Under the pieces are notes generated by a model. That model saw only the letters and a list, made by a program, of their open reading frames with translations, was not told the origin of the DNA and did no database searches. This document shows positions 6,874 through 58,600 of a stretch of DNA of 64,000 bases, piece by piece; the first letter of the stretch is position 1; each line of letters opens with the position of its first letter. Source of the stretch: Sphaerolaimus hirsutus. Taxonomy: Eukaryota; Nematoda; Chromadorea; Monhysterida; Sphaerolaimidae. Location: the NCBI GenBank assembly GCA_964036195.1, contig OZ038458.1, positions 19,667,832 through 19,731,831 of the forward strand, written 5' to 3'. The position numbers and the translations under genes are program-made.

Positions 6874-6963
6874 TAGCATTAGTGAAAAGCGCCGGATGTG
6901 GTGGTCTGGTGGTAACATTCAAGCTGCCCCGGTCGCCAAACTAACAATACGCACTTACCGGTC

Positions 6964-11946: not shown

Positions 11947-12239
11947 TTGTCTATACAGGCAGGGCTTTGTGTGATGTGAGAATTTTGGTTGCACCACTAA
12001 AATGTCTAGTGATAGCAAATAAAAATGCAAAAATAAAAAATGTTGTCATATTTTCATATTTTTATTTTTCCCAATGGTAAAAACATGTAATGTAAATATT
12101 AAACATATAAAAGTAAATAATTTTTTAAATAAAGGAGTAATTTGGGGTAAAACATTACAGAAAAAAAGCAAAAAATTGCATTTGTGTCATGGTCTAAAAT
12201 ATCTTAATCATCAACAAAATCAATTAATATCAACACATC

Positions 12240-20915: not shown

Positions 20916-23165
20916 ATGATGGCAGCATGCAATGCAACAATGGAGATAATTTCTAACACATCACATCAAGTTCATATATTTGTCAGGCTAACCTTATCAG
21001 TATTTGGAGTTTTCTCCAATATGTTACTGATTGTAACCACGCAAAAGGCAATTTTGATGGACAGAATTGCGAAGGCGCAGTTCACAAATCTCGGCGTGGC
21101 ATTTTTTGTTTGGCAGATTTGTGACATGTTTTTGATCGGCCATGAAGTGGGTGTTACCTATGTATTTGGTGAACCGTGCTTTTTGATGGTTGGTGCTTGA
21201 TATTGTGTGATGATGCTATTGTGGTCAGTAGTGATGTGAAAAGCGCCAGAACGTTGGCGTCAAGCGCCAAAAGCGCCATGGTGATTTTCCGATCCCCGGC
21301 GCCAAGCGCCAATGGCGCCAGAGCAAAATGGTGCCAAGCGTCAGAAGCGCCATGGCGCTATTTGCTTTGGCGCTAGCGCCAGGCGCCAGCTCCATGGCGC
21401 TTTTACATCACTAGCGGTCAGTCCTATTGCCATGCACACTCACAGATGCAGAGAATGACATGCAGTTTTATTTTGTGGATTATAACAGCGCAATATTCCA
21501 CTGCAATATACACCCTGGTTTCTATTGCAATTGAAAAGCTGGTGCCACTCCCAAACCCTGCAAAATGTCAAATGTCATGCAAAGTGTCAAAAGTCATGGA
21601 AAATACCCTGGAAAATGACAAACGCGTTTGCCATTTTGCAGGGCATTTTCCATGACTTTTAACACTTTGCATGACATTTGACATTTTACAGGGTCTGGGC
21701 ATACCCCCTGGTTTGCACGTACTACCTTACCAAGCATAGTTTAGAGCCCACATGTCATGGCCATGGGCCACTATTCTTCTGCATGATTGGTGTGTTTGGT
21801 GGTTTGCTATTAGCGTTCCAAAAATTATGGGAGACTTATATTTAAAAAAATATACAAATCTTATATTTATAAATATTTTTTCCAAGTTCTTTCAGAGATA
21901 TTTAATTGTAACGGTATATTTTACGAGAAGAAAATATCTCCAATTCATATTTTTTATAGATTGGTACCCATATTTTCTCTGTGGTTTTTATCAAAAATCA
22001 AATAACCTAATTTCAATTTTTAAAGAATTTTTTTTGAGATTATTAATATTTTATAATATTTTCTGAAAAACATTGGATTTTCCATTGTCCTATTTTGGAA
22101 CGTTTTTTTTGGGTTGTGACTGATTGCAACAATAGCGTAATAAAAATTGTTCACAGGATTGCCCTGGGCAGCTGGCTGGATTCTAACCAGCCACAGAATC
22201 ATTTCCTACACTTTCATAGAGCCATATGTTTCAACAGCAAATCAACTGGTGCCCCGCTGTGATCACAATGAGGTCTCAGGCAACCCAAAAGTTGACAAAG
22301 CCTTGTCAGCAATACTTTTACTGTCGGCACTATTTTGTCTGGAGCCAGTTCCGCAAATTGAGAAGGAGAAGTGAAATGGCAAAAGCGAAGTGAATTAAGA
22401 AGTAAAATGGCACAGTGAAAAGAAATTACTTCTTTTTTATTTTCTACTTCGCTTTTGCCAATGTTCTTGCCATTTCACTTCGCTTTTGCCATTTCACTTC
22501 TCACTTTTTAATTTGTGGAACTGGCACCTGGTTTTGTACTCGACAGTGTGGAAGTGGAGTAAGATTTTTTGGCGAGATTTTCGGAACCACCCACAGTCAC
22601 TCAGCGTGAGATTATACACAAACAGGGCGCTGGATACAACAAAGTTTGAATTCTATTTTGTTTTTGTGATTTGTAGCATTATCAATTTGTTTTTTTACCG
22701 CACTGGCAGGTCGATACTAATTCTCATTGTATTTCATTGTATAATGGTGATCATCACGGTTTCCGGATATGCTGGCTATCAGGTTGTGTTGCAAAAAAAA
22801 TCTGAAAAATGTTTGCAAAATCTGAAAAATTCTGAAATACATCTTTTTTGTGTCTGCTCAAAACTTATTGATCCATAATTTTACAGGCCGCAGAAAGTGG
22901 CACAAAACTCAAAATGTGGCTTCGATTATCTATGACAGTATCTCAAATTATGCCGAGCCTTGGACCTGTAATTCTGATCAGCACGCAAAAGGCACTGAAT
23001 GATTCATTTGCACATTTGATCGTAACCAAGCTTCTACCTGCTTTTGGGAAAGTTAATCTCAACAACAGAGTGGCGGCGGCTGTTCAAATGACGTCACCAG
23101 AAATTATCAATTCAGCAAAAGGGCATCGTGCTCAAGACACGTACTTTGAAATGTACAAATTTTGA
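20916..23165 (+). CDS. Seven-transmembrane receptor A (nematode Sra-superfamily-like)
   Basis: Exons: 20916-21188, 21446-21541, 21711-21789, 22157-22341, 22531-22643, 22710-22782, 22887-23165; 365 codons plus stop. The product is probably a chemosensory GPCR in the plasma membrane. It has an N-terminal glycosylation site (CNAT), hydrophobic helices in every exon, SIAIEKL after the third helix, LPWAAGW before the fifth, a CDHNEVSGNPK loop and the C-terminus YFEMYKF. It aligns end to end with paralogues B and C; once the two introners are removed, exon 1 is 273 bp, exon 2 is 175 bp and exon 3 is 298 bp, exactly as in B. The start was chosen by alignment (MMAACNAT with MDLACNAT). CACAG lies six bases before ATG. 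Intron 22783-22886 is private to this copy. Oddities: both introners have CTG-type 3' ends, so normal splicing is uncertain; intron 1 holds a GCGCC MITE. The family assignment rests on pattern resemblance only. Confidence 0.75.
21231..21411. mobile_element. GCGCC-palindrome MITE in receptor A intron 1
   Basis: It starts GTGATGTGAAAAGCGCC and ends GGCGCTTTTACATCAC, with TA on both sides. It fills most of the first intron. Confidence 0.8.
21542..21710 (+). mobile_element. Introner in receptor A exon 2, CTG type
   Basis: A 169-bp fold-back from GTGCCACTCCCAAACCCTG to TACCCCCTG, with CTG duplicated at 21539-21541 and 21708-21710. Removing it joins EKL to VCTYYL in frame and gives the 175-bp exon length of paralogue B. 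It contains in-frame stops and its length is not a multiple of three, so retention would kill the protein. The 3' end is TG instead of AG. An in-frame AG exists 24 bases further on and would delete eight residues. Confidence 0.85.
22342..22530 (+). mobile_element. Second-family introner in receptor A exon 3
   Basis: A 189-bp inverted repeat starting GAGCCAGTTCCGC and ending GGAACTGGCACCTG, with CTG duplicated at 22339-22341 and 22528-22530. The arms carry AGAAGTGAAATGGCAAAAG and its complement, not the AAATGTCAAATGTCATG body of the first family. Precise removal gives CL-VLYSTVWKW in frame and the 298-bp exon length. Its first bases are GA where the pairing arm predicts GT, so neither splice dinucleotide is canonical. 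Confidence 0.8.
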
Positions 23166-23527
23166 TTGTGTTCATCTGCTGATATGGTATTTATGCTCAT
23201 ATTGTGTGAATGTGATGTCACAATAATATTTGTTCTGTAGTTTCGCTAACGTTTGTTCAAATTTCCTTCAAATTTCCTTTTTACGTGGGTTGATACTCAG
23301 ATTTTTTATGATATAACATCATTTGGCGATTCATTTGCTTTAGAATAACTTGTGCTCCTTTCAATCAACGACTAAGGTCTAGTGATGGAAAAAGCGCCAG
23401 GACTTTCATTTGGCACGAACCAGAGTTGCGAAAGCGCATTTACGCTTACCCGAAATACCCGGGTATTTGGGTATTTATACTTTTATATATGGTATATATA
23501 CGCTTTTATATATTTATATATGGTATA
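23166..23527. other. Intergenic between receptor A and a nested MITE
   Basis: No gene. A truncated GCGCC element begins near 23383 (GTGATGGAAAAAGCGCCAGG). Confidence 0.45.
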
Positions 23528-23648
23528 CCGTATTTCCTCGAAATACCCCCCCCCCTCGAAATACCCCCCCTCAAAATGGGCACTATGGATTTGTGGTCCG
23601 GGAAATGCATAACAGACGTTCAAAACACTTACTGTGTTACGTTAGAAC

Positions 23649-24777
23649 TAGGGTGTCAAATTTCCGTTTCCGTTTTCCGTTTCCGCCTTTCCGCAGGAAA
23701 ATTGTTTACCTTTCCGTTTTCCGTTTTCCGGTAGCTGAAAAATTTTTACCTTTCTGTTTTCCGTTTTCCGGCAGCCGAAAAATTTTTACCTTTCCGTTTT
23801 CCGTTTTCCGGCAGCTGAAAATTTTTTACCTTTCCGTTTCCGTTTTTCCGGCCCATTTTTCCGTTTTCTGGCTGAAAAATTTTTACCTTTCCGTTTCCAT
23901 TTTACCAGGCCATTTTTCCATTTTCTGGCTCGATTTTCAGTTTTCTTGCATTTTTCCATTGTTTTTCCAATCTGTATTTATCTTCAATTGGCTCATCCCA
24001 TTGTGTTGTTTTTGTCTCTTGGAGCAGCATTGACAACTGGGATTTCAGGGTCAGTGAAACAGGTGCTGTGAACCCCATTGGGTCATATGCTGACACCAAT
24101 AATTTATTCAAGTTTTGTCTGGTTGGTGTTGTGATGCTGTCAATTTGCAATTTTGGTGTTGATATTGCCAGCATGTAGGCTTGGTGATTTTATGTCAGGC
24201 CCATTACTGCGACAATTTTATTCACCTTTGAATGACTCCTGTCGTTTTCTGCTATTTCATTCATGACTGATCTGGAGTTTGACAGCCATTCCCTCATGTT
24301 CATAGAACATTGGTTAAATAAAGCTTTGACTTTGTAATATAGTTCTAAAGCTTCAACTTGATGATTTTTTGTTGGTTCAGTTAAGCTTGAACTACAAGTG
24401 AAGTTACAGGCATGATCCATAGTTGCAGAATGTACAGCTACCACAATCAAAGCCAAACAGGCAAACCTGCATGCAGGTTTTCCTTCTGCAAATTTGTCTA
24501 TTACCGTGCTGATTTCACTTTATTTTTTTTCCGTTTCCGTGAAAATTTTGCTTTCCGTTTTCCGTTTTCCGGCATTTCATTTTTCCGTTTTCCGTTTTCC
24601 GGCCGACAATTTTTTTTTACCTTTCCGTTTTCCGTTTTCTGCTGAGTGAAATTTTTTTACCTTTCCGTTTTCCGGCAGAATTTTTTTTTTACCTTTCCGT
24701 TTTCCGTTTTCCGTAAAGTGAAAAAAATTTACCTTTCCGTTTTCCGTTTTCCGTAAAAAATTTTTTTTGACACCCTA
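23649..24777. mobile_element. hAT-like element with TTTTCCG arms and captured pol fragment
   Basis: It starts TAGGGTGTCAAATTTCCG and ends TTTTTTGACACCCTA. The perfect 8-bp duplication GTTAGAAC is at 23641-23648 and 24778-24785. Both arms are CCTTTCCGTTTTCCG series. The central half-kilobase is unlike the arms and carries a retrotransposon pol remnant on the minus strand. Confidence 0.85.
23902..24456 (-). pseudogene. BEL/Pao retrotransposon pol fragment, broken
   Basis: On the minus strand, two open segments (24456-24190 and 24174-23902) share one frame and are separated by a TAA. The first has MREWLSNSRSV, like the F-xLRKWxSNS segment of Pao pol. The second has VSAYDPMGFTAPVS, like the YDPLGLxSPV motif after the reverse transcriptase, and a W-DEPI match further on. 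Upstream catalytic RT, integrase, gag and LTRs are absent and the 3' part runs into simple repeats. The fragment is non-functional and appears carried as cargo between the hAT-like arms. Confidence 0.7.
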
Positions 24778-24924
24778 GTTAGAACATCGTTTATACCATC
24801 TACATCCTTATATAAGGCTGTAAAAACTTTAAAATGGTGGTTATTGTTGCATTTTTCACGTTTTTTTCTCAAAATTCTCACTCTGAAACAATAAACCCCC
24901 GGGGGGTATTTCGAGGAAATACGG

Positions 24925-25336
24925 TAGATATATATTTAGGCTTTTAAAAAACACCGGTATTTTAACAACTCTGCCGCTAACGCCAGGCGTCATGAATGAA
25001 TAAATATGAATATGATGAATATAAATTCATGAATATTGCGATCATGTTATGAAGTATCTTGTCGAATGAAAGCCAGTGTAATGTAATCATGTATGTAGGT
25101 GGTAATTCAGATTCAGATGGAGTATGGTAGTGTGGTATTAGAAAGCGTTATCGTATTTCAATAAACTTATAAAAATCACATTAATATGTATGAATCCATG
25201 TAGGTAAATCTGAGCGGAAGCAGAATTAATATATGTAAATAACTGTAGTTTACCCCTACATTCTCTAAATAGGTAACATCACTGACAACCAGTGTCGAAG
25301 AGACCACAGAAAACGAAAATAGGCATATCAGAAACA
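24925..25336. other. Intergenic upstream of receptor B
   Basis: AT-rich, no gene seen. Confidence 0.4.
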
Positions 25337-27566
25337 ATGGATCTAGCGTGTAATGCAACTTTAGAACTTATATCTCACCCGGCACATCAAGGGCAAATTA
25401 TCAGCAGACTTATTTTGTCTGTAGCTGGCATTTTCACAAATATATTTCTGATTATTGTTGCCCTGAAAGCTACCTTGCTGGATCGCATAGTCAAGGTGCA
25501 GTTCATAAATCTGGCCGCATCGTGCATTGTTTGGCTGATGGTACACATGTGCATCACGGGTGCCACTCCCAGACCCCGTAAAAAGTCCTGACAAATGTCA
25601 AATGTCATGCAAAGTGTCAAAAGTCATGGAAAATGCCCTGGAAAAAGGAAAACGTACGCTTGCCATTTTGCAGCAAATTTTCCATGACTTTTGACACTTT
25701 GCATTACATTTGACATTTTACAGGGATTTTTACAGGATCTGGGAGTGCCCCCTGGACATGAGGTGATTGTCACCCACATTTTGAACGAGCCATGTTTGCT
25801 GGTGGTCTGTTTTGTTGTTGTTTTTTAAGCAATATTTCCCTTTCTCTACAATTATTTATATAAATTTCCTCCATTCAACCTGGTTTCAGATGAAACGTAT
25901 CACTTGCTGTGTGATTTTGGTAATATTACCTGCTCAGTATGGCACCACAGTATTTGTAATTGCATCTATAGCAATTGAGAGATTGATTTTCACTCATACA
26001 CTGATAAAAAATAAGTTGGAGCCATCCCATGGCACTTGCAGCCTTGGAGCAGAATCCATGATAGGTAAATGTGATAAATTTTATATTTGCCTGTCAGTTT
26101 GAGAACATTTCGAAATGCCGCCAGCGTTTATTGTGGAGAGACAATGAACTGGAATAATGAAGCCACTCTGAAGCACAAAAAAGTACAAGGAATTTCGATA
26201 AGAAAAACAATGTGCACTACACAGATAATTTCTCTATTCTCAACAGATACAACAGTGCATTCTGATTTCACCAATAACTGCCCAAAATTCCAGCTTTGCC
26301 ATGGGCTGCAGGCTGGCTTATCATCAGCCACAGATACATATCATACAGATTCATTGAACCATATGGATCCACAGCCAATGATCTGCTGCCACACTGTGAC
26401 CACCATGAAGTTGCTGGCAATCAAAAAATTGACAAGGCAATATCCCTTTTATTTGCCTTGTCTGCATTGGTTTGCTTGGCTATGTATCTGATTGTGTGGA
26501 GATGGAATCAGAGATACTGGGCAGACTTTGGCCGAGAGCCACAGACATTGAATGTCAGAATCATGGTGAAGAGGACACTGGATACAACCCAGTGAGTAAT
26601 CAAGTACCTATATCAAGTGCCTCTTCAACACTCAATATTTAAGGCAGTGATGCTAACACTGCTGTGTTAAATGCTGCACTGCTATGTGAAAACCCAATAT
26701 GTAAATTTTTCTTATCTCATCATTTATTTAAAACAAGCAGATGGCTACTGAAGTGGAATTTCTAGACAATCGTGCAGCTGCAAATGTTGCTAACATGTGG
26801 CTTACTCAACTATCTGTTCTAGAAATGTCACTAAGCATATTTAGCTGTGTACAAAAAGAAATAAGTTCATACTGGATTAAACTGAGGGCTATAACCCATA
26901 AGTATCACAACTGAGATACATATAGGTAAAATAGTGACATAAATATTTGAATTCTTGTGTTTTCTAGTCACATGGACACCTTTTTCACAATATTCTGGTC
27001 AGCTTTCTATTAAAACCACATTGCAGAGCAGTTCTCAATCTAATTGTGTTCCATTCAGTGTTGGTAGTAATTACCATGGCTTGCTACATTGTGTATCAGT
27101 CAGCAGAGGAAAAAACTGAGACAATATTGTGGATACTTACATTTGGTTATGCCTGCAGTCAGATCATGCCCTGCATGGGTCCTGTTATCCTGATGTTCAA
27201 GCAAAAAGCACTGAGAAAGTCACTTGCCAGCAGCATAGGTGCCAATCCCAGACCCTGTGAAATGCCCTGTAAAATGTCAAATGTCATGCAAAGTGTCAAA
27301 AGTCATCAAAAGTGTCAGCAGTGCAAACATACGTTTGCCATTTTTCAGATAATTTTATATGACTTTTGACACTTTGCATGACATTTCACATTTGACAGAG
27401 CATTTTATAGGGTTTGGGAGTGCCCCCAGGTTGCTGCAACTCAACTGAATCCAGGACCAATAACCTTTGGATGACATTTGTGAATCCGCCAATGTCCTCA
27501 AGGGTGGTGACTCCTGCAGTGGGCACTGCTGCACAAAAAGCATATTTTGAAGCATATGAATTTTGA
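25337..27566 (+). CDS. Seven-transmembrane receptor B (nematode Sra-superfamily-like)
   Basis: Exons: 25337-25559, 25755-25804, 25890-26064, 26294-26591, 27027-27238, 27430-27566; 364 codons plus stop. It is a paralogue of A and C, presumably a chemosensory GPCR. Visible marks are CNATLELISHPAH at the N-terminus, PAQYGTTVF, SIAIERL, LPWAAGW, CDHHEVAGN, RYWADFG and a C-terminus ending AYFEAYEF. Two introners interrupt it, after the second helix region (25560-25754) and near the C-terminal tail (27239-27429). Removing both restores the exon lengths of the paralogues. The C-terminal exon after the second introner is the most divergent part. Start by alignment; an in-frame ATG at 25292 upstream is less likely because ATATCAG, a possible trans-splice acceptor, lies just before the chosen ATG. 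Intron 26592-27026 holds nothing I recognise. Confidence 0.75.
25560..25754 (+). mobile_element. Introner in receptor B exon 1, CTG type
   Basis: A 195-bp element from GTGCCACTCCCAGACCCC to GGGAGTGCCCCCTG. The flanking triplets are CGG (25557-25559) and CTG (25752-25754). Removal gives ITG-HEV in frame, as in both paralogues, and an exon of exactly 273 bp. The 3' end is TG. A canonical AG nine bases upstream (25744-25745) would also keep frame and add three residues (VPP). Confidence 0.85.
27239..27429 (+). mobile_element. Introner in receptor B last exon, CAG type (GT-AG)
   Basis: A 191-bp element from GTGCCAATCCCAGACCCTG to GGGAGTGCCCCCAG. It joins SSI-G-CCN in frame through ATA G|GT. The flanking triplets are TAG and CAG. 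Splice sites are canonical. Confidence 0.85.
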
Positions 27567-28761
27567 GTAGATGACAAATTGAACCCACCTATATTGTTTT
27601 TATTCGTGGTTGTCGTTTAATACACACTTTGTGGTGATGTATCAAATGAGTTTGAAAGCAAAAACATCACACACATCTGCATTTTGTTTTTTACTTTGGT
27701 TGCCATATTGTTTGTGATCAACAATAGCAATTTTTTTATGACAATTGTGATCAGTTCCTAGTAAACATCACACAGTATTCGATTACTATTTGTACGTCAG
27801 CATCGAAAGTTGGGCCAATGTTGTGTTGTTGACTTATTTACTGTTCATCTCACTTTGTGGTCACTCTATTTTGCATGTTTAGCTTTTCCGGTGAGTCATA
27901 TTGCAGTTTAGTTTCAATTTGCACCCATTAGTAGCCATTCCATATCATTGAAATATTGGATATGGAAATTTTACTGCAATAATCCTCAATTTGCATTCAA
28001 AGCATTAAGTATCAACATCATCAATATTTATGAAAGCATTGCAAATATAGTGTTTAAGATTTGTATCTACATATTTATAGTTCTGAGTTTACTTCCAGTG
28101 CTTACTTACTGACGTCTGTATGTCTCATGCCTGAAATCATTTTTTATTTTTTTAAACAATTTTCGTTTCATTAGTGATGCTTAAACGCGACTCCCCCTTT
28201 TCCATTTTTTGTGAAAGTGCGTGCATAAGTATCCTGTTCGCGCATTGTCTACTAAGACATAAGTAATTTTGTATGCATACTTTGCGGTCCGCCGAGTATA
28301 CCTAAAGTCGGCGGACATTTCACCCTACAAAATCGGAGAGTTAGAATTCGCTCGTGAATAGAGGGAACAACGAAACTTGTGTCCCACGCGGATGCTAGAA
28401 ATTGAAAAAAGAAAATCATATTAAAAGAAAAATGAACATTTCGCGGCGTGCGTGCGTGCTACGCCCTAGTTAACTACATTTTCAACGTTGCTCGTTGAAA
28501 GCGAAAGAATTTGACCGTTCAAACTATCGTTTTACCGTTCAAACTACCGTTTTTTCATTCGTTGGCTCTGTTCCAACAGAAGAGAACTTGGCAGCCAGCC
28601 AAACATTCGAAATCCGCTATAAATATGAATAAAATAGGCTCACAATAGCTATAAAACCATGTATATAAACAAAAATAGCGATTACGAAGGTGGAAATTGG
28701 CAAAGCAAAGCAAATTTTAACGATTTTTAGCTAACTTTGAGTTTTCACTCTCATTTGTATA
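27567..28761. other. Intergenic between receptor B and a poly-C MITE
   Basis: No gene. 28211-28302 (GTGAAAGTGCGTGCATAAGT ... CCGCCGAGTATAC) is repeated at 33570-33660 inside the PWWP gene, so it is a dispersed repeat. Confidence 0.5.
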
Positions 28762-29210
28762 CCGTATTTCCTCGAAATACCCCCCCCCTCGAAATACCCC
28801 CCCCCTTGTTTGACCCCCCCCCTCTCGAGACCACTATGAAACAATCACCCCCCCCCCTCGAAATACCCCCCCCCCAAATTGAGTGTAAAGAGAACGTACA
28901 TGACAAATACGGCAGTTTGTGTTCTACGTAGTGCAGAACACACGTTAAAACAATGTCGGAATCACGTTAGAACAGTGTACATACCATCTACATACTAATA
29001 TTAGTCTACAGAACCTTATAAATGGCGGTTTTTGTTGCATTTTTCGACGTCTGCGTACGTTTCAGACGACAACTTTGTACTTGGTTTTCAAAATTTTTCT
29101 TGTGAAACAATCACCCCCCCCTCGAAATACCCCCCCCCTCGTTTAACCCCCCCCCTCTCGGGACCACTATGAAACAATCACCCCCCGGGGGGTATTTCGA
29201 GGAAATACGG
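28762..29210. mobile_element. TA-flanked MITE with poly-C arms
   Basis: It starts CCGTATTTCCTCGAAATAC and ends TTTCGAGGAAATACGG, with TA flanks. Long pure C runs separated by TCGAAATA and TCTCGAGACCACTATGAAAC motifs. The interior matches 52141-52543 in reverse. Confidence 0.8.
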
Positions 29211-29449
29211 TAATACACAACTGGTAACTGGGATAAGGGCCAAGTTTTCATACATGACCCGATCTATTTCAATTGTTAAAATATTGCGTCACAAATCCTA
29301 ATGCCGTCATGCACTCTCCACTGGAGAGATTGACGCAAATGTTTGTAGGGCGATACGTCTGCCGACTTTACATAACAATTGAAAATTGATTGACCACGGG
29401 TCACACATAGCTAAACGGTACCAAATTTTTCTCTTCCTAAACAGACACT

Positions 29450-31538
29450 ATGGAGGCAGTCTGCAACACAACATTGCAAATAGTATTCCACCCTGCACAC
29501 CAAATTCAAATCTTTGGCAGATTGTCATTGTCTGTAATTGGAGTGTTCAACAATGTGATCTTGATCTCAATAACATTGAATGCTGCTTTATTGGATGCAA
29601 CAGTGAAGGCACAATTCATAAATCTGTCTGCATCTTGCATTGTGTATCAAATTGGACAAATGGGTATAATGGGGCATGAAGTACTTGTCACATACATTTT
29701 GAACCAACCATGCTTTGTGGTGGTCTGTTTTTTTATTATATTTATGTTAATCTTTGCATGTGTGTCATTCCATTTTGTAGTTTCCACATGCCTTCACAGA
29801 TAAGAAGAATTATGTGCAGTGTACTTCTTTGGATACTGCCTGCTCAGTATGGTACCACAGTGTTTATTATTGCATCTATAGCCATAGAGAGGCTGCTATT
29901 CACAAATGCACTGAAAAAAAACAAGTTGAATAAAATCTATCAGTTGGACTCTTGGCGCAATTTGATGTCAGTAGGCAAACTGTCTATGATTGGTGAATTG
30001 CTTATCTTCCTAATTGGCTTGTGTGTTGTGTTATTCATCAACAAACTACAATAACTTTGTGTTATTTCAGCTCTGCCATGGGCTACTGGCTGGTTCCTCA
30101 TTGGTCACAGATTCATTTCGTACATGTTCATTGAGCCATATTCATTATCTGCCAATGAACTGGTTCCCCATTGCGACCACCAGGTGCCAGTCCCACACCC
30201 TGTAAAATGCCCTGTAAAGTGTCAAATGTCATGCAAAGTGTCAAAAGTCATGGAACATGCCCTGTAAAATGGCAACTTGGTTGCCATTTTGCAGGGCATT
30301 TTCAATGACTTTTGACACTTTGAATGACATTTCACACTTTACACGGCATTTTACAGAGTCTGGGACTGCCCCCAGGAGGTGGCTGGCAACCCAAAAATTG
30401 ACAAGGCACTTTCTGGATCATTTGCTTTGACTGCATTTATTTGCCTGGGAATGTATTTCATTGTGTGGAAATGGAACAAGAGATACTGGGAAGATTTTGG
30501 CAGACAACCACAGAATTTGAATGTAAGGTTCATGATCAAAGGAACGTTGGACACTACAAAGTAAGTTGCTTTTGGAGCTTTTCCATTCTTCAATTATACA
30601 CTCGATTTCTTCCTTTACCTACTTACCGTATTACCTCAAAATACCCGCATGGGGGTTTATTATTTCGCCAGCAAAATTTGAGGGGGGTTAATTCGAGGGG
30701 GGGGGGGGTTTATTCGAGGGGGGGTTTTATTATTTCGTCAGAAATTTTCGTAAGGATCGTAGTACAATGTAGGCATTTGCATACCCAAAACGAGTAATAA
30801 ATGTGTCCAAACAGGATATATTTGGACATAAAAACGCAAACTAGTCTATGTGTAGCTGCAATGCAAATTAACAGTAATATACATCATGTACATTGCATAC
30901 ATGACGTATTTATTATGTACATGACGTACATCATTCCGAAGGGGGGGGGGGTATTTCGAGGGGGGGGTTAATTCAAGGGGGGGGATAATTCGAGGTAATA
31001 CGGTATCTCTTTGCCACCTTACCATGGTGCTGTGCAAAATATTCTTGCAAATACACCACTCATTGTGAAGTAACAAACACCATAAACTTACAACTGCAAG
31101 TGATCAGTTGAAAGCGAGATAATTTGTCGCTTTTTGGGTTGCTGCTGTAATAAATTACACACACCAATTCTATTCCCCAGGGCAATCTTAAATCTAGTCG
31201 TTTTTCACTCAATCATGGTCATAATTACAATGGTCTGTTACAACATCTACAATTCAGCATTGGATGGAAGTGAAAAAAAGTTATGGGCACTCATGCTTAC
31301 TTTGATCACTAGTCAAATAATGCCCTGTATTGGCCCAATTATATTGATTGTGAAGCAGCAAGCACTGAGAACGGCTACTATGAATGTGATTTACAAAAAA
31401 ATTGCACCCAGGTTTAATGTAAGTTATGGTGCAAAAAAGTGGGCATATTGTGTGGTGCAGCCACAACCATCAAAAATTGTGAATTCTGCAACTGGTCCTG
31501 TTGCGCAGAAAACTTACTTTGATATGTACAAATTTTGA
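29450..31538 (+). CDS. Seven-transmembrane receptor C (nematode Sra-superfamily-like)
   Basis: Exons: 29450-29722, 29800-29992, 30071-30183, 30376-30560, 31181-31538; 373 codons plus stop. Marks shared with A and B: MEAVCNTT at the N-terminus, PAQYGTTVF, SIAIERL, LPWATGW, CDHQEVAGN, RYWEDFG, QIMPCIGP and the C-terminus TYFDMYKF. Exon 1 is 273 bp and exons 3a plus 3b sum to 298 bp, identical to the paralogues; exon 2 is 18 bp longer. Start: ATG six bases after a strong TCTTCCTAAACAG acceptor. One introner (30184-30375) lies in the CDH-EVAGN loop, where A and B have continuous coding sequence. A poly-C MITE fills the last intron. Of the three this is the cleanest, with GT-AG at every junction. 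Confidence 0.8.
30184..30375 (+). mobile_element. Introner in receptor C exon 3, CAG type (GT-AG)
   Basis: A 192-bp element from GTGCCAGTCCCACACCCTG to GGGACTGCCCCCAG, with CAG duplicated at 30181-30183 and 30373-30375. Removal joins CDHQ to EVAGN in frame. Paralogues A and B have no intron at this site, so this is an intron gain after gene duplication. Confidence 0.9.
30626..31003. mobile_element. TA-flanked poly-G/C MITE in receptor C last intron
   Basis: It starts CCGTATTACCTCAAAATACC and ends AATTCGAGGTAATACGG, with TA flanks. Confidence 0.75.
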
Positions 31539-32625
31539 TTTATTTTGAAAAATTTGGGTCAGTTGAGATATTCATCATCACGTGTGATGTTTAACACCAT
31601 AGAAAACTCCATTCCCCACTAAATTTATTATAATGTGATACTGAATGTGAATTTTTGTGTTTCAAGATTCCATAAATCCTCAACTAGGTAGTTCCCCTGG
31701 CGGAGTAGGTAATTTTTTTCTGTTGTTGTTCTTTTGAAGGGGAATTATTCAAAGGGACATTTTTACGTGATACATTCATACTTTACTATCACATTTTTAT
31801 CATTTCATTCCGCCGTAAACAATGTTGAAAGGAAAAGGATATTCTGGCAAATTTGAAATACAATGCATATATGGTCTGTGAAATGTTACTGTATTTTTTA
31901 TATACCTATAGAGAATACTCCATCCCATCCTAGCACATGTCAATTGCATTGCTATTCAATCAATCAAAATAGATGTAGATGCATAATTAATTATTACGAT
32001 CTTCTGAGTAAAATACCTCCAACTTCAACCTCTGGCTTTTTTTTGCTGTACATTGTGATTATGTGTAGATTGGGTTTTGATATTTCAGCATTTTATTGCT
32101 ATTTCGGTACGAGTGTGGTTTTTTGAAAAATAATCAAAAATAAATCGGGGAGGACCCTTATGTGAAGTTGGCAGCTGTCCAAAACAATTATTGGATACAC
32201 TGTTTGTATACTGCCGTTAACGACGGAGAAAACCAACGCGGTATGCCAGTGTAAAAACCGCCATTAGCGCCCATTTCCGGTCGTTTGATCGCATTCTGCG
32301 GCGATTTTTGGTGACTAAGACGGAACTCCTGCGTCTTTTACTCTCATTCCATGTATAACACGCCCATGTATCCAAATACAAACTTGGACATAAGCCAAAT
32401 TCACATCTGTGTCCAGATCCAAATGAATTCGTCCGTTATTTTATTTCGCCCCGCTGCGGTAACTATTTATCTCTCCTATCCAATCTAACTGAATGCGAAC
32501 GCATCGAGAAGTCGTCAATAAAAAGCTTACAGCTGCTCTTTCTATGACATTCTATCTGTTCACACGAGATTTAGGCTGCGTTTCAAAATAAAGTTATCAC
32601 CGTTTTAACTTTTACCGATTGTTCT
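31539..32625. other. Intergenic between receptor C and the PWWP gene
   Basis: No gene seen. The last part should contain the promoter of the PWWP gene; no clear TATA box stands out. Confidence 0.4.
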
Positions 32626-38600: not shown

Positions 38601-41600
38601 AAAAAAACATCGGCCAACCCTAGGTAAGCTACGGTTAAAAAATTTTAACACGTTAATATATCAGGTGTTTTGAGTTTTCACCCAAAATTTCATCTCTCTA
38701 GCTCCACCCACTGCGGAACTGTGGGGGTTACAATTTCGGTCATTTTGTACTGATGTACAAATGGTGCTCTAGCTCAACGCTGCTTTAAGTTGTGATCATG
38801 AAACTTTGGCTAGTGTAAGCCACCAGTGTTGGCAATGTGGTGATAGTATTCAACACTTTCATCAACATCATTGCTATTAAGGTAAAATTAATATGCAGAT
38901 CAGGGTGATGTGCAAGAAACGTGGGAACTGTGATGGATGTTTTTGGTGATCATCTGAGATCATGTTGTATTGCAGTGATTTTAATGTTGTTTTGAAATGT
39001 GCAGTAAATTATTATGTCAATTAAATTTCATTTGTGTTTCATTACTAATCTGTAGTGGACACATTACCCGTGTTCAACAGCAGTGTGCACGAAAAACGCC
39101 TCCTGTATCAACCTGTATTGACCAACCGTAGAGGCAGAATGATGAATTTGGTAGTTAGAGTAGCGACAGTAATGGCAAAATGGACTAGGCTTATGATATC
39201 ATAGCTAATGTTGGTTAGTGCTGGCACATTGCCAACACTGGTGGCTTACACTAGCCAAAGTTTCATGATCACAACTTAAAGCAGCGTTGAGCTAGAGCAC
39301 CATTTGTACATCATAGTACAAAATGACCGAAATTGTAACCCGCACAGTTCCGCAGTGGGTGGAGCTAGAGGGGTGAAATTTTGGGTGAAAACTCAAAACA
39401 CCTGATATATTAACGTGTTAAAATTTTATAACCGTAGCTTACCCCTAGCGTGAATGGCAAGCACTGCCCGGGGACTTTTCAGCCCGACCATGTACATTGT
39501 TTCTGGAAATACATTGATATCAGAACTAGAATAATTTTCCACACTTCATTCATCAAATTACGCTGACAATCCGTCTAAAGCATGCACCATGTAAGTGTCG
39601 CATTCAATTTTCTCGCCATTTTCCGCCCAGAAAATGACAGCGGAAAATGGCGGAAACCAGGGCAGCGACAGCGAGCCGGACGTGAAGCCGCCGCTCGAGC
39701 TGAACGCTTTCCCGCCGCTCGACGCCGACGATTTCGGTTCGCTCGACGATTCCGATCTACTCGGCGGCCCCCCGTGGCCGGAAAATGACGGCAAAAAACT
39801 GCTGGTGCCAGTCCCAGACCCTGTGAATGGCCTGTAAACTGTCAAATGTAATGAAAAGTGTCAAAAGTCATGTAAAATGCCAGGTAATATGGCAAACGTG
39901 TTTACCATTCTACCGGGCATTTTACATGACTTTTGACACTTTGCTTGACCTTTGACAGGGCATTTGACAGTGTCCGGGACTGCCCCCTGGACACGTTCAA
40001 ACCCGACGGCAGTCGATGCGGCAAGAAGGGGAATTATGACGGCGCCCGTCGCGGCATGGGTTCCACCATTCTCAACCACGAGTTTGAGGATGAGTTTTGT
40101 GAGAAGTTTCTCGCCGCTGTCGCTGAGACTGACGCGTTTGTTTTTTGCCAATTTTGGTATTCTGGGGGTTCGTTTTAGGTTGGCCGGAGTTTTTTTAAAC
40201 GCAAACATCGAACCTTTTTTTAAACCGGAGCCAACATTTTCAGTTTTCAAGGTTTTTTCAGTTTCGATGACTGGGTTTTTAAAAAACGACTTGTAAAACC
40301 CCCTTTGAACACCCCCCCCCCTCCGGCCATCCCTACACTAGCTATTTTTTCATTAGGTAGATTCAGGGACGTATCCAGGATTTTGGAGCGGGGGGGGGGG
40401 GCTGCTTGTTTACGGGGGCCGGCGAACGGGGGGGGGCTCCCCCCCCCAAAATTTTTCCCTGTATAGGGACGGAAAGGCGTTTTGGCGCTAGCGCCATACA
40501 AAGGCGCCACGCCATGGCGCTATTGGCGTTGGCGCCAGCGCCAGGAACCGCTTTATATGTATGTAAATGGGCAAACATATACACGAAATTCGCAAAAAAT
40601 GTGTTCATTTCCAAGGATTTTGGTTTAGAGGGGCTGATCCGCTGAAAATACAATGCATGGGGAAGAAATTGCGCGCTTGCGCGCAAAATTTTTACGAAAC
40701 ATCGAAAATATTTAGGAAAAGTTGCAATTTCCGTGACTTTTTTGATCTCACCCCGGGAAGGGGGGGGGCTGCAGCCCCCCCCCCCGCCCCCCCCTGGATA
40801 CGTCCTTGGGTAGATTCGTAACTACATCTGGGAGCCTGTAAAAACGTAATATTTATAAAAAAGCGTTTAAAAAACGGGTTGTTCAAAAATATTGTTGTTG
40901 TTTTTTTTCCCTAGGTTCTTGTATAGAATACATTCATAAACATAGCGAGCGTGTCTACGCCTAATTGCCTGCACACTCTTAAAAGCACAAAACACGCCCA
41001 CCCGCAGTATTTGGAAGTCATCGCATCCCGACTATGGCGGGCGCAAGCGCAATTCCCTGTATTTGCACATTGCAAAAATGGACTTTTTCACGCCGCCATT
41101 TTATGGAGATCCTAGTGTGAAATTGTTCCAATTAAATGGCAGATATCCCGATGCCAATTACGATGTAAACGCGCGCATTATGGCTATGGTGGAACTGTGG
41201 CGCAACTTTAAAAGACGATATGTGGTGTGTCGTGGGGGTTTTACAGGGGTATTCTTTGTTTTGATTGTAGATCGCTCCTTCGGAAGGATAAATTTGAATG
41301 AATAAAGAAAAAATAGCTGAATAAATTTGTGGGAGGTTGCGGAGGTTCAATATAGGCTTTTTCTAGGTGTAGAAGGCCGAAAAGGAGGGAAATTGGGTAA
41401 AAATATGTGAAAAATAGAGGCTCATATAGCTCAGATACTTTTTGTTTCTAAACTGACCCATCGGTGCAATTTCACGTCTATATCAACATTTTCCAACCAT
41501 TGAACCAAACTTTCAAAACTTATAAATTGCAGGAATTGGCTCGATCGATCATGAAAAGCGATCAATTCGAATCGCTGGGCGGTAAAGAATTGGCTTATGC

Positions 41601-50684: not shown

Positions 50685-50983
50685 GTCATGTGTGCAGATA
50701 AAATTCTATTGGAAAGTGTGGGTTTTTTGGTGAAATGTGGAAGTACCTGGAGGCTTTTAAAGTTTCCCAAATATTTATTTTATATTCCTCCGTTACACAC
50801 GGGTGGTTGATTCCGGTCCGCCCATTTTTTGAGAGAACTTTTGAGAATACTGTTTCTGTTGGCTATTTAAGATGGGTTGTCTGGTATCGACCATCGATTC
50901 ATTTTCAGTATTGTTTCACGCTTTGTTTTGGCAAATTATTCTCGTTATAGATCACACTTTAAATGCGTGTGTATTTAAGGGTC

Positions 50984-51394
50984 GTTTACACGGTTTCGTG
51001 TGCCGACAAAAAAGTTAAGCGAGAAAGTTCCATAATTCCGGAATAAAGTTCCGTATCTGCGGAAAAAGTCAGTGAAGTATACTCACTAGTTAAGTTTACA
51101 CACATGCCAATTTGCATATAATTTGAGCCTGTCGTTCAAGACTTATTTCAGTCTTAAGATGAATTTCAGTTGTCGGTTCGGTTTCAAAACGGAAACCGAA
51201 CCGACAACTAAAATTCATTTTCAAATGCCTATAATTCTTGAACGACATGCTCAAATTATCTACAAATTGGCATATGTGTACACATAATCAGTGAGCACAA
51301 TTCACCGTTTTTTTCTTGCATATATGAAACTTAATTCAAGAATTATGGAACTTTTCCACCAAACTTTTTTGTCGGCACACGAAAGCGTGTAAAC
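50984..51394. repeat. Fold-back element
   Basis: The ends GTTTACACGGTTTCGTGTGC and its near-perfect complement pair over about 40 bases. The centre is a hairpin on GTTTCAAAACGGAAAC. Confidence 0.75.
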
Positions 51395-51788
51395 GCTGCT
51401 TTATATATTTATTTGTGTGTGTGTATGGAACATCGTTTCATCACAACAGTGATACTTCAGAACTTCTAAATATGTTTTGTGTTCATGTTTGGTTGTCTTT
51501 TTTCCCAGTTCTTCGAAAACAGTTAATTTTTAGCAAATCGGTTGATATTGTTAGGCCTGTCATATGATTCGCTGCAAATGCAAAATCATAGAAAATCAAA
51601 TCTCCCAGTCCCAGCCGGATCACACAAATATCATTTAACTGTAAGTTTATTGACAACGTCAACCGAGGACCAAGTTTTGCAATAAAAATATTCCTGAGAA
51701 TTCGAAAATTTTCAGACATGCATGCGAGCTTGCAGAGCCAGCTAGAGCACCCCTTTATTTAGATTTTGCCATTTGCAAATGTGTCTTT

Positions 51789-52024
51789 GGGGCCGCGCAC
51801 ACTGAAACCGAATATTTCGGCATACGCACGTTTTTGACAAATGCCGAATTAAATGCTGAATAGAAAAAAACTTGCCGAACCAAAATCGTCCAGACGTTTT
51901 CAAAATTCAATATGAAATGCCTAAAATGCTGAACTAAAACCGTCTGAACGGCAATTTTTCAATTCAGATTCGGCAGATGAAAAGTGCGTATGCCGAAATA
52001 TTCGGTTTCAGTGTGCGCGGCCCC
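51789..52024. repeat. Fold-back element with ~41-bp perfect ends
   Basis: It starts GGGGCCGCGCACACTGAAAC and ends with the exact complement. Interior arms with TGCCGAA / TTCGGCA motifs also pair. Confidence 0.85.
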
Positions 52025-52140
52025 ATTTACATAGCTCTATTTGTTGTTTGCGCGATGCACAATAAACTAAGTCATTCCTTGTCATAAAATGTGTAGAAAA
52101 TTTGAATCATCTAATTTGTTGTGTGGCCGCTACATACATA

Positions 52141-52543
52141 CCGTATTTCCTCGAAATAACCCCCCGGGGGGTGATTGTTTCATAGTGCTCCCGAGAGGGG
52201 GGGGGTATTTCGAGGGGGCGGTTATAATTTCGCAAGAACTTTTTTGAAATCCTAGTACAAAATCGTTGTTTGTGATGTGCGCTGGGGTAGAAAAATGCAT
52301 CAATAACTGACATGTAAAGACTCCTGTATACTTATATTAGTACGTAGATCGTATAAACACTGTTCTAACGTGATTCCGACATTGTTTTAAGGTGTGTTCT
52401 GCACTAAGCAGAACACAACCTGCAGTATTTGTCATGTACGTTCTCTTTACACTCAATTTGGGGGGGGGGGTATTTCGAGGGGGGGGGGGGTGATTGTTTC
52501 ATAGTGGTCTCGAGAGGGGGGGGGGTATTTCGAGGAAATACGG
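52141..52543. mobile_element. TA-flanked MITE with poly-G/C arms
   Basis: It starts CCGTATTTCCTCGAAATAAC and ends TTTCGAGGAAATACGG, with TA flanks. It resembles 28762-29210 in reverse and ends about 100 bases before the BOP1 start codon. Confidence 0.8.
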
Positions 52544-52643
52544 TAATTATGAATAACGTTATTTTGCAGCATGGTTCTTACAAACATGATTCATAAATTT
52601 ATGTAAAAAATACGCTCCTCATGTAGAACCCTGATCACTAAAA

Positions 52644-55600
52644 ATGCAACGGAAAACAAAACGGTCCCTGAGCAGTCAGCGGAAAGATAAAATCGAAAAA
52701 CCCGAATCTCTAAAAGAGCAACCCGATTTGAAGAGTGAACAATCGAGTAGTTCGGAAACAGAAGTGACTGTTTCCGATGAGAGTTGGGACAGTGACATCG
52801 ACCACGTTGGGGACAGTGACGATTTATCTGGTGAGTTGGTTTGTGCTTGTGAATAATTGCTGTATCTATTAATAGGTCATCAAAAGGTTTCTATTTGAGA
52901 TTTTGTCAACTCTGGCGGTGGGGGCGGTTGACTTTTGCACATTGTTTGCCCCGGGCGCTAATTCCGTCAGTGATTTTCGTGTGAAAGGACACTAGGGAAA
53001 ATGTCGGTGACAGCACTACTGAGTACGGGTGGCCTATGTGGTTTTTCAAACTGTTAAAAAACGTTGTTTTTTTTAAACGCGAGCATTGAAACCGTTTTTT
53101 AAACCACTGCTGATGTTGTACGCATTGACTAGGTATTCATTTGGAGAAAAAAATTGCGTGCTAGCATCCATGCATGCACTACCATGCAAATATGCAGTCA
53201 AGCCGGGTGCCAGTCAAGCTGAAACTTCATCAATGGGCAGTAAATCATCGCAAAAACAGCCACAAAATCGATTGAAATCTGCTGATGCCGGGCTCTCCGA
53301 ATCTGAGCTGAGTGATGTTGCCGATGAGGACGGAGTCAGACCGCCACCGAAATTTGACCCATTGGATTCCAGTGACGAGGAGGTTAAGATACCTTGAGAT
53401 TTTGTGCTTCCCTGAGGCCGGATTTAATTCGAAATTTAGAACGTTATAATTTAATTGAGGCGTCCAATTCTAAAAGTCGACAAGTCCAAATATGAAAATT
53501 TCGAGTTAGGCCCGGAAACGTCATCTGGGGCTACTTCCGCACATTTTTCATCATTTTCCATAAATTTTTTGACCTCACATGCCCATATGGCATAGTGCCA
53601 AATTCGACATTTTTGGGGAAAAATGCAAAAAATTTGGGCAAGAAGTCGACAAGTCCACTTAGTTTTGGGCTAAAAGTCGACAAGTCCATCCTGCGCATCC
53701 TTTTTTATGGGGAAAAAACGCAAGAAATGTGATAAGTCCACTATGGGCACCGATTTCTAAAAGTCGAGAAGCGCATAAATTTCCCATAAGGGAGGAGCAA
53801 CGCGGGCGGGAACAAAAATGTCCTCGCGTGCAAGAGGGCGACAAGTCCATTTCCCTCCCAAAAACAGTTTTGCTCTGACCGAATGGAATTTTATGGACAC
53901 CCCATTTTTCACATATACGTTGAGATTTGGGGCTGAAAATTTGACACTTTATGGTCAACATATGGAACTTAATGAAAAGCATAAGAGAGCCAAATTGGAC
54001 ACGCACCACGGGCCTGGAATTGGGTTTGAAACTTAAAATGCGATTTACTCAAAATCACATTTTGTGGACTTGTCGACTTTTAGAATTAGACGCCTCAATT
54101 TTGGGCTGGCTGTTGGGGGGGGGGGGGGGGTTCGTTCAGGACCGCTGGAATTTTTGAGAAAATTAAACACTCACTGGAAGAAACTCAGAGAATATTGATG
54201 TTTGGTATTGGATAGTGTTGATTCAATTGAAATCCAATTTAAATGTTTTGTGTCATTTTTTGATCAATTCAACCAGCACGTTTCCCAGGACATTCGGAAC
54301 ACGATCGGAAACATCCCTTACAACACTTGGTACAACGACTACGAACACATTGGCTATGATTGGACCGGCGCTCGGGTGAAGAAACGTGGGCAGCAAAGGG
54401 GCGAAATCGATGAATTTCTGGCTAAAATGGATGACCCCGATTATTGGTTGGCTTTTCGTTGTGTTTTGTATAAGTTTCTGTGTCAATAAAACCTATTCTT
54501 CAGCTCGAACAACTTGTCTCTGTTTCGATGTGCATATTAGATATTTTATAATTTTTCTATATCATTATTTGATACTACAAACAAAAAATATTTTTGTTTG
54601 TAGTACTTCAATTTTTCCGAGTCGAATATCGATATCAAAAAGTTATTGGTGCCAAATATTTGACGTCAAATATAAATACAAATTAATATAATATAATATA
54701 AATACTATCCATTCCTTCCATTACAAATATTTATTAACACAAAACACTCGAATGCAGGCGCCGTGTCAAAGACCGTCAACTAGGGGGCGAACTGAAGTTG
54801 ACCGATGAACAGATCAATGTAGCTTCAAATGTTCGGAAAGGCAAACACCCCGTGGTCGGGTACAATCCGTATGAAGTTGGTCACTTAATCCATAACGCTT
54901 GTCTCACCCAAGTTCGACAATTTGATGCTAAAAATCTTTTTTCGCAGCCGTGGGTTGATTTGTACTCGCACGAGGTGCTACAGATGCCAGCTGTCGATCG
55001 ACAAGATCACAAAAAATCATTCATTCCATCGTTGCCAGATAAAAAGAAGGTTTGCTCGGTTCATATCTGTTTCAAGTGGGGATTGTCCCCGTTTGTTGAC
55101 CGAGTTTTTGGGAAAGATGGTATAAAAAATTGGTATAGAATACCGTTTAAGATATTTCTTTTCAAATCCTGTCTTGGTATTTAAAATCATTTTTTAATTA
55201 TGGCTCCAAGGACATTTTATGACGATCAGTGAATACCCTCAATGATCAGTGGATCAGTGATGATAAATTTTATTGATTTTAATTTAGTCACCTTAACGTG
55301 CTACCAAATTTACCATTATTATTTACTGGACCACCAAAAAAAAACACGACGAAACAAAAAAAAATCTTGAATGAATGTGCACTTGGCAGGTGTCCAAGTT
55401 AGTCTACGCCATCCGCATGGGTTGGCTGAAACCGAAACCCAGTCGAGCGGTCGTGCAGAGAACTGACGATGATGAAATGGATTTGAACAAGGACGTGCCT
55501 AAATTTTACGATCTCTGGTCTGATGGACCCAAGGTTTGTTTGAGACCGTGCGCCTGCTCGGTGTTTACACGGTACTCATCAGATTTAGGATTACCATGAA

Positions 55601-58600
55601 TTATTTATTTACCAGATAGGTAAGGTAGATTAAAGATTAATATGCACATGTAATTACAATTTTTCTAATCCAAATTTTAGGACCCGGGAAATATTGTTTT
55701 GGGTTCTCACTACCTAGATGAGGGTTTCAAAACGCATTAAAAAAGTTTTGGTGCTCGTCAGAATTTGGTGTTCGCCTAATAACCCAAGTTAATTTATTCG
55801 AACATGTTCTTTGACTCCGCCCACTTTTCCAGGACCAACACGCATCGCGCAGCGAGCGCGCCCGCTCATCCATGCGCATCGGCGCGCCCAAACTGCCGCC
55901 GCCCGGCCACGCCGAAAGCTACAACCCGCCCAGCGAGTACCTGCGCGACGCGGGCGACACCAGCGGCGATTTTGTACCCCAAAAGTTCGACGCGCTGCGG
56001 CAGGTGCCCGCTTATGGGCAGTTTGTCGCCGAGCGGTTTGAGAGGTGTCTGGATTTGTATTTGGCGCCGAGACAGAAGAAAAACTTGGTGGGTTTTTTGG
56101 GGGTAGGCTTTTTCTTTTTGAGAAGTGCTTAGGCTTCAAACGGGATTAAATTTTCGGGATCGGGATTGAGGTCTCGTGATCGAGATCGGAATTGTTTTCA
56201 CAGGTCACGGGATCTGGATTTTCGACGAAGTTCTGGTATAGAGGGTTTTCTCCAATTTTTCTCAAAAAATAGTCTAAAACACACCTGAATTCGATGGCGA
56301 AAGATTGAAAAAGGCACACTGGATATTTCACACTGCGAAAAGTCATTCCTTTCACTTTTTTATCTTTCGCTCTCATTTTCCGGGATCGGGATTTTTACCT
56401 TTCCAAATTCTTTGACACGTATTTTCTTATTTTAGCTCGACGTGCGGCCGGCCGACCTGCTGCCAGAGCTGCCAGCGCCGCGTGATCTGCGACCGTTCCC
56501 CACCATTCAGTCGCTGGTTTGTGCGACATCGATTTTTTTATCGCCGCTTGTTTTTAGTAGAAATAGTAAATGATAATAAAACTGTTGGATAGCCTCATCC
56601 ATTTTGTGGAAATCTGAATCCTGATAATAGATAATGTTGTAGAGAAATGATAGATTTTATGTAAAATTACGTCAAAAAAACTGATAAGTATGAAAAATGT
56701 CAAGTCAAGTGAAATGTAAATAGTTTCACTTGCCACGAACAGATTTACTTATCACCTTACCCGATTCAACACCCGATTCAAATTTTGCAGGTGTACCGCG
56801 GGCACAAGTCGGCCGTGCGAGCGATCGACTTCGAGCCGCACATCGGCCAGTACATGGCCAGCGTCAGCGACGACGGCTGCGTGCGGCTGTGGGAGGTGGC
56901 CACCACCAGGTGCCAGTCCCAGACCCTGTAAAGTGTGAAGTGAAGTGTCAAATGTCATGGAAAGTGTGAATTGTCATGCCGAATGTGAAGTAAAATGTTA
57001 AGTGTCATGCAAAGTTCAGTAATAAAGTTTTTTCTTTTTTTGTTTTGATTGACATTTTACGCGACATTTGACACTTTACTTTACACTTTACAGGGTCTGG
57101 GACTGCCCCCAGGTGCGTGCGCACTGTCCATGTGGCTGGCCAGTTGAAGGACAGTGATAAGGAAAGTGTGGATGGAGAGAATGTTGGCGCCGCCTCGCTC
57201 AGTTGGTGCCCAGCCAAGGGCCTGTCTTTGATTTTGGCCGCTTTGTTGGTTGCCTTTGTGGTCTTTTTTGCATTTTTGAGTTGATGAACTCATGGAAATT
57301 TTTTGACCCACAGTGGAAATCGACTGGTGTTGCTGTCTGCGCGAGTGGGCGACCGTTTGGTCGTGCAGAACACTGAAAATCTTCACAAGCAGATAGCTGA
57401 CGCCATTGACCAGGGTGCCTTTTCCGTTGTTCATACATATTTACCTTTACTCCTACTAATCTTCTAGTTATAATTTCATCTCTAGGAATTGGCGCCGATC
57501 TAGCGCAATGGCGTCTTCCCACCGCACGGGAGCGTGATAATGGCATCATCGCATTTCTAGAGCGGCAAAAGGCAAGATTTTAGAATGTTCCAAAAGTACC
57601 TGGACACTAAACTAATCAGCAATTAATGTGCCATCGCAGCCAGTGCGGCAAGCTTGCTGGCACTCTGGCGGCGACTATTTCGCATCCGTGTGCCCGGCGC
57701 AGGGCTCCCGTGCAGTTTTGGTGCATCAATTGTCTAGAGCTGCGTCGCAGGTACATATTGTTGCCTTGAGGCGTCCCTGTTGTTGACAATGTATTTTTTA
57801 ACAATTGATTTCGCAGGCTCCGTTCAGCAAAAGCAAAGGCACCGTTCAGTGTGTTCTATTTCACCACACGTTGCCGCAGCTGTTTGTCGCGGTGCGTCTA
57901 TTGGTTGTCTGCAATTCGCCGTTCGGAGGGCCTGTGGTGAAATAGGTCTTAAATAGAATTAGCGTATTTCCTCGAAATACCCCGTCGAAATACCCCCAGG
58001 CCTGGGCGAGCTTATAAAAAATAAACCCCCTCGAAATACCCCTACCCGAAATGAGTGTGAAGGTAAATAATTGCCAAAAACTGCTGTTTGTGATCTACAT
58101 TTTCATTTTTCAGTTTGTAACATTTTCCTACGTTTTTGTTGACCCTTTTCCATCACCTGTTTACCAAACGTCCCCAAATAAAACACACCTCCACAACCCC
58201 CCCCCCACCCCCCCCCCCCACAGACGCAAACGCACGTGCGCATCTACGACCTGTCCAAGCTGCAACTCCACAAGAAGCTGTACACGAGCCCGCTGCGCTG
58301 GGCGGCGCACATGAGCTTGCACCCGGGCGGCGACAATTTGCTAGTTACCGGGCTCGACTGCAGGGCGGTCTGGTTCGATTTGGATTGGGGGGCTAAGCCT
58401 TTTAAGTCCATGAGGTGTGTTGGAAGTGGGGTGAGCGGTGTGTGTGATTAATGTGACTTGCGAGTTTGAATGGCTGCTTGATGGTAGGTAGTTTTGAGCT
58501 TTATGGGTTATTGGGGCGGGGGTTGTACTGTTTTTTATTACCCCTTTGAAAAAAGTGATATTTTTCTATTTAAAATTCATCATTTTATTTAGACAAAGTA

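Follow-up and report, generated by a model that had tools for sequence, protein, structure and literature searches.

We analyzed a 64,000-nucleotide stretch of the genome of the nematode Sphaerolaimus hirsutus (contig OZ038458.1; this whole stretch is hereafter called the window), which holds seven fold-back (inverted-repeat) elements of 169-203 bp each, all located within putative coding exons. The elements are, close to certainly, copies of a non-autonomous DNA transposon inserted with a 3-bp CWG target duplication (CAG or CTG). Judged by their sequences, they probably represent an introner family in an animal, as six copies of the main family, carried by five genes, are similar to one another up to both borders of the putative introns. 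The insertions, the target duplications, the orientation of the copies, the open reading frames and the empty paralogous sites are all observed.

All seven elements of the earlier note on this DNA were found at their coordinates (given here on the forward strand), and both the consensus and the identity comparison agree with its division into six elements of one family and one, at 22342-22530, with a different body. Receptor gene A carries a main-family element in exon 2 (21542-21710, the element proper being 21542-21707, with CTG at 21539-21541 and 21708-21710) and the second-family element in exon 3 (22342-22530, with CTG at 22339-22341 and 22528-22530). Two main-family elements interrupt receptor gene B, one in exon 1 (25560-25754, flanks CGG/CTG) and one in the last exon, which encodes a variable C-terminal tail (27239-27429, flanks TAG/CAG), and receptor gene C has another in its exon 3 (30184-30375, CAG/CAG). 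Of the remaining two, one interrupts a MADF-like tandem gene in its first exon (39805-39989, CTG/CTG) and the other BOP1 in exon 8 (56910-57112, CAG/CAG).

Pairwise identity within the main family is 66-88%, and identity to its own majority consensus is 72-94%. One terminus of the main family is GGGGCAG and the other GTGCCAG; all six exonic copies start with GTGCCA, and CCCCC precedes the final two bases in each of them. The second-family element has the same type of ends (left GAGCCAGTTCC; right, as reverse complement, GTGCCAGTTCC), with the GTG end on the 3' side of the gene. Terminal inverted repeats and a target duplication are thus both present in the elements. Single-element folding, performed for 30184-30375 and 22342-22530, predicted hairpins of nearly the whole element length (-126.1 kcal/mol, where shuffled sequences average -46.9, z -18.4, and -103.2 kcal/mol, where they average -39.4, z -15.7, respectively); the fold-back nature of the other five elements is known from their listed inverted arms. 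Changes on both sides were observed in 15 of 84 pairs of the element RNA, and this covariation was set aside as evidence, because an inverted repeat alone can explain paired changes. The window gave no match in Rfam at the gathering threshold.

Removal of the elements leaves three tandem receptor paralogues open from start to stop: gene A (20916-23165, forward strand; 365 aa once two elements and four ordinary introns are taken out), gene B (25337-27566, forward; 364 aa, two elements and three ordinary introns) and gene C (29450-31538, forward; 373 aa, one element and three ordinary introns). The restored lengths in A, B and C are 273, 273 and 273 bp for exon 1, 175, 175 and 193 bp for exon 2, and 298, 298 and 298 bp for exon 3, so that the earlier claim that removal restores the 273, 175 and 298 bp of uninterrupted paralogues holds exactly to the base. 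Because of this equality, one or more insert-free paralogues exist for each of the insertions at 21542 (where B and C lack the insert), 22342, 25560 and 30184. The receptor protein alignment is free of gaps across these four junctions, and the paralogues carry there neither the insert nor any other intron; unrelated paralogue introns at the insertion sites, which the earlier note had named as a finding that would speak against it, are therefore absent at the four sites. The junction at 27239 falls in the variable C-terminal tail and shows a 2-residue alignment gap, so the paralogues demonstrate empty sites for four of the seven insertions and do not resolve 27239, 39805 and 56910.

In Pfam searches, 7TM_GPCR_Srab, which we take to be a nematode chemoreceptor family, was matched below threshold by gene A (E 0.25) and gene B (E 0.054), and gene C gave no match to this family. 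Relatives of the receptors were found neither by single-sequence search nor by a profile of the three paralogues. Gene A has an additional ordinary GT-AG intron (22783-22886, 104 bp), absent in B and C, which lacks the element ends.

The BOP1 gene (53233-59569, forward strand) encodes 695 aa in 16 exons, separated by 14 ordinary introns (13 GT-AG and one GC-AG, the latter at 57572-57639) and the element. Human BOP1 (8fkp, 625 bits) aligns without a gap at the 56910 junction; 15 residues that are extra in the window protein relative to human BOP1 are located 12 residues downstream of the junction. The best BOP1 matches are animal proteins, with Plectus sambesii at 685 bits and Priapulus at 681 among the matches listed (the best 120 of 1,808 hits, with 7,992 candidates scored). 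In a tree of 34 rows, which used 33 of the 120 listed proteins, hand-picked for spread, the window protein groups with Plectus, Trichuris and one further protein (4 rows, 100/100), on long branches flagged by the program. Together with the Srab matches, we read this as an animal host, perhaps a nematode, the tree being a lead only. Searches with the receptors or BOP1 found no close protein relative.

The gene carrying the 39805 element is part of a tandem MADF-like family, in which PF10545 is matched by one member at E 0.028, below the Pfam cut-off. On either side of the element the gene has an open reading frame. The nearest paralogue in the window aligns only from 40025 onward, 35 bases beyond the junction, and the junction is therefore not anchored by homology. 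Consequently, of the five interrupted genes reported previously, four (receptors A, B and C, and BOP1) are established and the MADF-like gene is a probable fifth.

The target duplication is an exact CWG in five of the seven exonic copies, and the other two have one mismatch each (25560 and 27239). Outside the modelled genes, the main-family copy at 11573-11776 (reverse strand) has an exact CAG on both flanks, and the base following its duplicate, in the family orientation, is A. A 4-bp CWGG duplication was rejected on account of this A, which stands where a G would be required, and the duplication is thus the 3-bp CWG. According to the available part of PMC4482050, a CWG duplication characterises the NuwaI group of the PHIS superfamily, which is found in animals only and whose repeats usually begin with GGG. 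By its duplication, the transposon described here would fit the NuwaI group, with which it further shares an animal host and one terminal repeat beginning with GGGG; it differs in its second repeat, which begins with GTG, and in the putative link to introns, which the available part of that source does not state for NuwaI. On reading the open frames of the window no transposase was noted, and no search aimed at transposases was made.

We propose that a non-autonomous NuwaI-like transposon would insert into exons at CWG sites, and that its GTG terminus may have derived from a GGG-type end, thereby creating a 5' splice site. The GTGCC of one terminal repeat would then serve as the 5' splice site, and the intron would take its last two bases from the 3' target duplicate. 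Insertions at CAG would give GT-AG introns, removed exactly by ordinary splicing with the protein unchanged. Insertions at CTG would give GT-TG introns, for which either exact removal, with the hairpin joining the ends, or splicing to an AG close by, with a slight effect on the protein, can be envisaged.

Exact removal of the elements gives open frames, as had been claimed, and this lends no support to splicing, because taking out any insertion together with one copy of its duplication restores the frame. Similarly, of the intron gain by a DNA transposon that the earlier note proposed, the insertion into exons of four, probably five, genes stands, and splicing is what we infer in every case, most so at the TG ends. 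That the insertions were recent is doubtful, since the copies diverge by 6.5-28.5% from their own majority consensus.

It could be argued that these are ordinary deleterious, unspliced insertions, and that some or all of the carrier genes are pseudogenes or heterozygous alleles. Receptor families often include dead members, canonical ends are absent in four of the seven elements, and gene A, which has two non-canonical elements, shows the most gene-specific changes up to alignment column 325 (187; B has 103 and C 120), though rooting may explain this. On the other hand, the frames are otherwise intact, and an excess of third-position changes flanks the elements on both sides, except in the C-terminal tail (A-B values there 0.69, 0.48 and 0.60); the excess is also seen in the changes specific to gene A (57, 45 and 85 at codon positions 1, 2 and 3, over 317 codons). 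BOP1, a ribosome-biogenesis gene unlikely to be dispensable, is also interrupted. No stop was seen in the receptor or BOP1 frames after element removal, whereas unconstrained drift would be expected to produce about 1 stop per receptor at 2% drift, about 2 at 5% and 4-5 at 10%, and in BOP1 1.7, 4 and 7, respectively. The corresponding chance of finding no stop is 0.32-0.38, 0.09-0.11 and 0.012-0.016 per receptor, and 0.18, 0.016 and 0 of 500 runs for BOP1. Moreover, the GT end lies on the 5' side of the gene in all six main-family exonic copies (one-sided 1/64), which speaks for splicing more than for plain insertion. Taken with both sides of this evidence, unspliced insertion appears unlikely.

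Additional features are consistent with an introner family. The terminal 11 nt, which include the C of the right-hand duplicate, show no changes from the consensus (0/66), compared with 17/168 in the repeat next to them (Fisher p 0.004) and 176/926 in the body. A G follows the duplicate in all seven exonic copies, compared with 51 of the 237 CWG sites that the modelled genes (by which we mean receptors A, B and C and BOP1) contain; this fits either a preference of splicing for G downstream of an intron or a preference of the insertion itself. Nine independent main-family insertions are found in the window, six exonic and three outside the modelled genes, and the chance of such an exonic bias is 3e-4 at an assumed coding share of 13% and 0.01 at 25%, the share being an estimate (the four modelled genes alone account for 5,403 of the 64,000 bases).

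It is important to mention that several observations weigh against the introner interpretation. The conserved ends could instead reflect recognition by a transposase, and the second-family element at 22342 lies reversed, with its GTG end downstream. Little weight attaches to the drift argument if the elements inserted recently, and the divergence from the consensus may predate insertion. Two copies outside the modelled genes have no exact CWG duplicate (9281, with CCG/CAG, and 3139, with no clear duplicate). The ratio of CAG to CTG in the main family is 3:3, and the modelled coding sequence holds 113 CAG and 124 CTG (15 CAGG and 36 CTGG), so that no clear selection for AG is visible in this small sample. 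Finally, U2-type GT-AG ends are present at the exact borders of only three of the seven elements, and AG is absent in the other four; all 24 ordinary introns of the modelled genes end in AG (23 GT-AG and one GC-AG), a count that is not independent, because AG was sought when the borders were placed. Human TG acceptors are described, in the available part of PMC2374985, only as alternatives located up to 28 nt from an AG.

In an intron beginning at GTGCC, the target duplicate would supply the last two bases, and a CAG duplicate therefore gives putative GT-AG introns (27239, 30184 and 56910), whereas a CTG duplicate gives putative GT-TG introns (21542, 25560 and 39805); the second-family 22342 would be a GA-TG intron. 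The intron interpretation of the earlier note thus agrees with canonical ends in three elements, and that note had overlooked that the other four do not end in AG and that one of them, 22342, does not start with GT either.

Two explanations of the TG-ended copies were considered, each of them possible without being the expected outcome. In the first, in an animal whose ordinary introns are GT-AG, the TG-ended copies would be removed exactly and constitutively with the assistance of the hairpin, the 3' site being whatever the duplicate happened to be; we put this forward tentatively. In the second, which we regard with similar reserve, only the CAG copies would be exact GT-AG introns, and the CTG copies would be spliced at nearby canonical sites with a change to the protein, or would damage the gene. 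In-frame GT-AG choices were enumerated within 40 nt of each element, and the eight nearest were listed per element (8 of 14 for 21542 and 8 of 11 for 22342). Exact GT-AG removal is possible for 27239, 30184 and 56910. Use of nearby sites would be cheap at 25560, where the alternative 25560-25745 adds only three residues (VPP), and at 39805, where sites at 40025 or 40028 lose 12-13 unanchored residues and the homology to the paralogue begins at 40025; a further choice there, 39834-39970, adds 16 residues. It would be costly at 21542, where the nearest canonical choice drops 8 well-aligned residues and the other listed choices, inside the element, add at least 10, and at 22342, where the listed choices lose conserved residues or add dozens. 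All three GT-TG copies have an AG 19 nt upstream of their end, but splicing to it from the same GT would break the reading frame; 22342 has no AG in its last 60 nt and one AG 16 nt downstream. The CTG-type copies are slightly nearer to the consensus than the CAG-type ones (0.89-0.94 vs 0.72-0.93) and could thus be younger. For copies that have standard ends, the internal splice pair CCT/GTAAAA with TTTTACAG/GG was discarded, because the 18 and 19 nt kept would shift the frame.

The type of duplicate would be irrelevant if the elements were removed at the DNA level in somatic cells, like the internal eliminated sequences of ciliates. The three AG and three TG ends of the main family, with no clear excess of AG relative to the CAG and CTG counts of the coding sequence, agree with such removal, but it leaves the orientation, the GT at the 5' side of the gene and the G at position +1 unexplained, and we know of no precedent in animals for exact DNA excision within exons; we consider it highly improbable. 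Equally improbable is that old introns were later colonised by the transposon. Transposons are often located in introns, but here the element fills the whole putative intron with no other intron sequence remaining, and the paralogues have no intron at four of the sites.

The introner interpretation was compared with known systems, as described in the available parts of the sources cited. A survey of 3,325 eukaryotic genomes reported introners in two animal groups only (Gozashti et al. 2022, PMC9860276). Like the putative introns of the window, these introners resemble one another and make up entire introns in several genes; many families have terminal inverted repeats and target duplications, and GA 5' ends are noted in some of them. 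The Chrysochromulina introner of Fig 2C in that paper likewise carries its 5' site and recruits the other from the duplicate; it has a 4-bp duplicate and no inverted repeats, whereas here the duplicate is a 3-bp CWG, of which CTG leaves a TG 3' end. The tunicate Fritillaria borealis is also an animal with introns breaking the GT-AG rule, and introner transposons with weak splice sites have been discussed as a possible source of its splice-site divergence; about 95% of its introns are non-canonical, chiefly AG-AC (18%) and AG-AT (16%), with YAY triplets (PMC13326754). A duplicated or altered U2AF is also reported for Fritillaria. By their ends (GT-AG, GT-TG and GA-TG) the elements of the window are not of the Fritillaria type, and the ordinary introns of their host genes follow GT-AG. 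The introners of Amoebophrya share inverted repeats, direct repeats of 3-5 nt at the exon borders, a predicted hairpin joining the ends and variable terminal dinucleotides; they differ in occurring in a dinoflagellate in which more than 60% of introns are non-canonical, and the available part of that source describes no fixed CWG duplicate (PMC7789003). The hemistasiid diplonemids share paired intron ends, for which an origin similar to miniature inverted-repeat transposable elements was proposed, and differ in being protists with a majority of non-canonical introns (PMC12621601). A paper on nematode introns mentions introners, in its available part, as known from elsewhere (PMC9169325). In titles and abstracts among the literature matches listed, a scope mostly outside subscription papers, we found no introner family with CWG duplicates and none in nematodes.

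Introners are a leading candidate for mass intron gain. A single family in one genome stretch offers here a set of matched natural experiments, in which the same element and gene family are combined with a CAG or CTG end and with empty paralogues, and the locus makes both the conversion of a transposon into an intron and the need for a 3' AG directly testable. If exact removal at TG were true, the insertion mechanism together with RNA structure, and not an AG, would determine which splice site is used.

Further main-family copies are located outside the modelled genes. In addition to the copy at 11573-11776, they include a copy with altered ends and no assigned strand (3139-3296), a degenerate copy (9281-9388, forward strand, with visible ends at about 9271-9388), and a copy at 12730-12933 (reverse strand), which duplicates the 11573 insertion via a local segmental duplication. 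This tandem duplication (11249-13457) spans no fewer than 1,054 bases, the query having stopped at 12300; its copies are 99.6% identical and 1,156 bases apart, element copy included. Four tandem 46-bp units, each with the right end of the element and its CAG flank, are present at 11757-11940 and again at 12914-13097, as though the insertion junction had been amplified. Long satellite arrays of AAATGTCAAGT-like units (12249-12406 and 13398-16066) are similar to the element body (AAATGTCAAATGTCATG), which may derive from the satellite or may have seeded it; weaker matches at 13801, 14756 and 15476 in the satellite array were left out of the copy count.

Another repeat, with ends like ACCGTATTTCCTCGAAATACCCCC, is present in many copies, often as inverted pairs (23523, 28757, 30614, 44127, 48750, 52129, 57950, 59163 and others), and is probably another miniature transposon; all of the listed copies are outside the modelled exons. 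An inverted repeat with 89-nt arms that are 100% complementary is located upstream of the MADF-like gene (38751-39313), and long inverted repeats in a nested arrangement, one with 113-nt arms (92% complementary) and one with 78-nt arms (91%), are found at 6371-6882.

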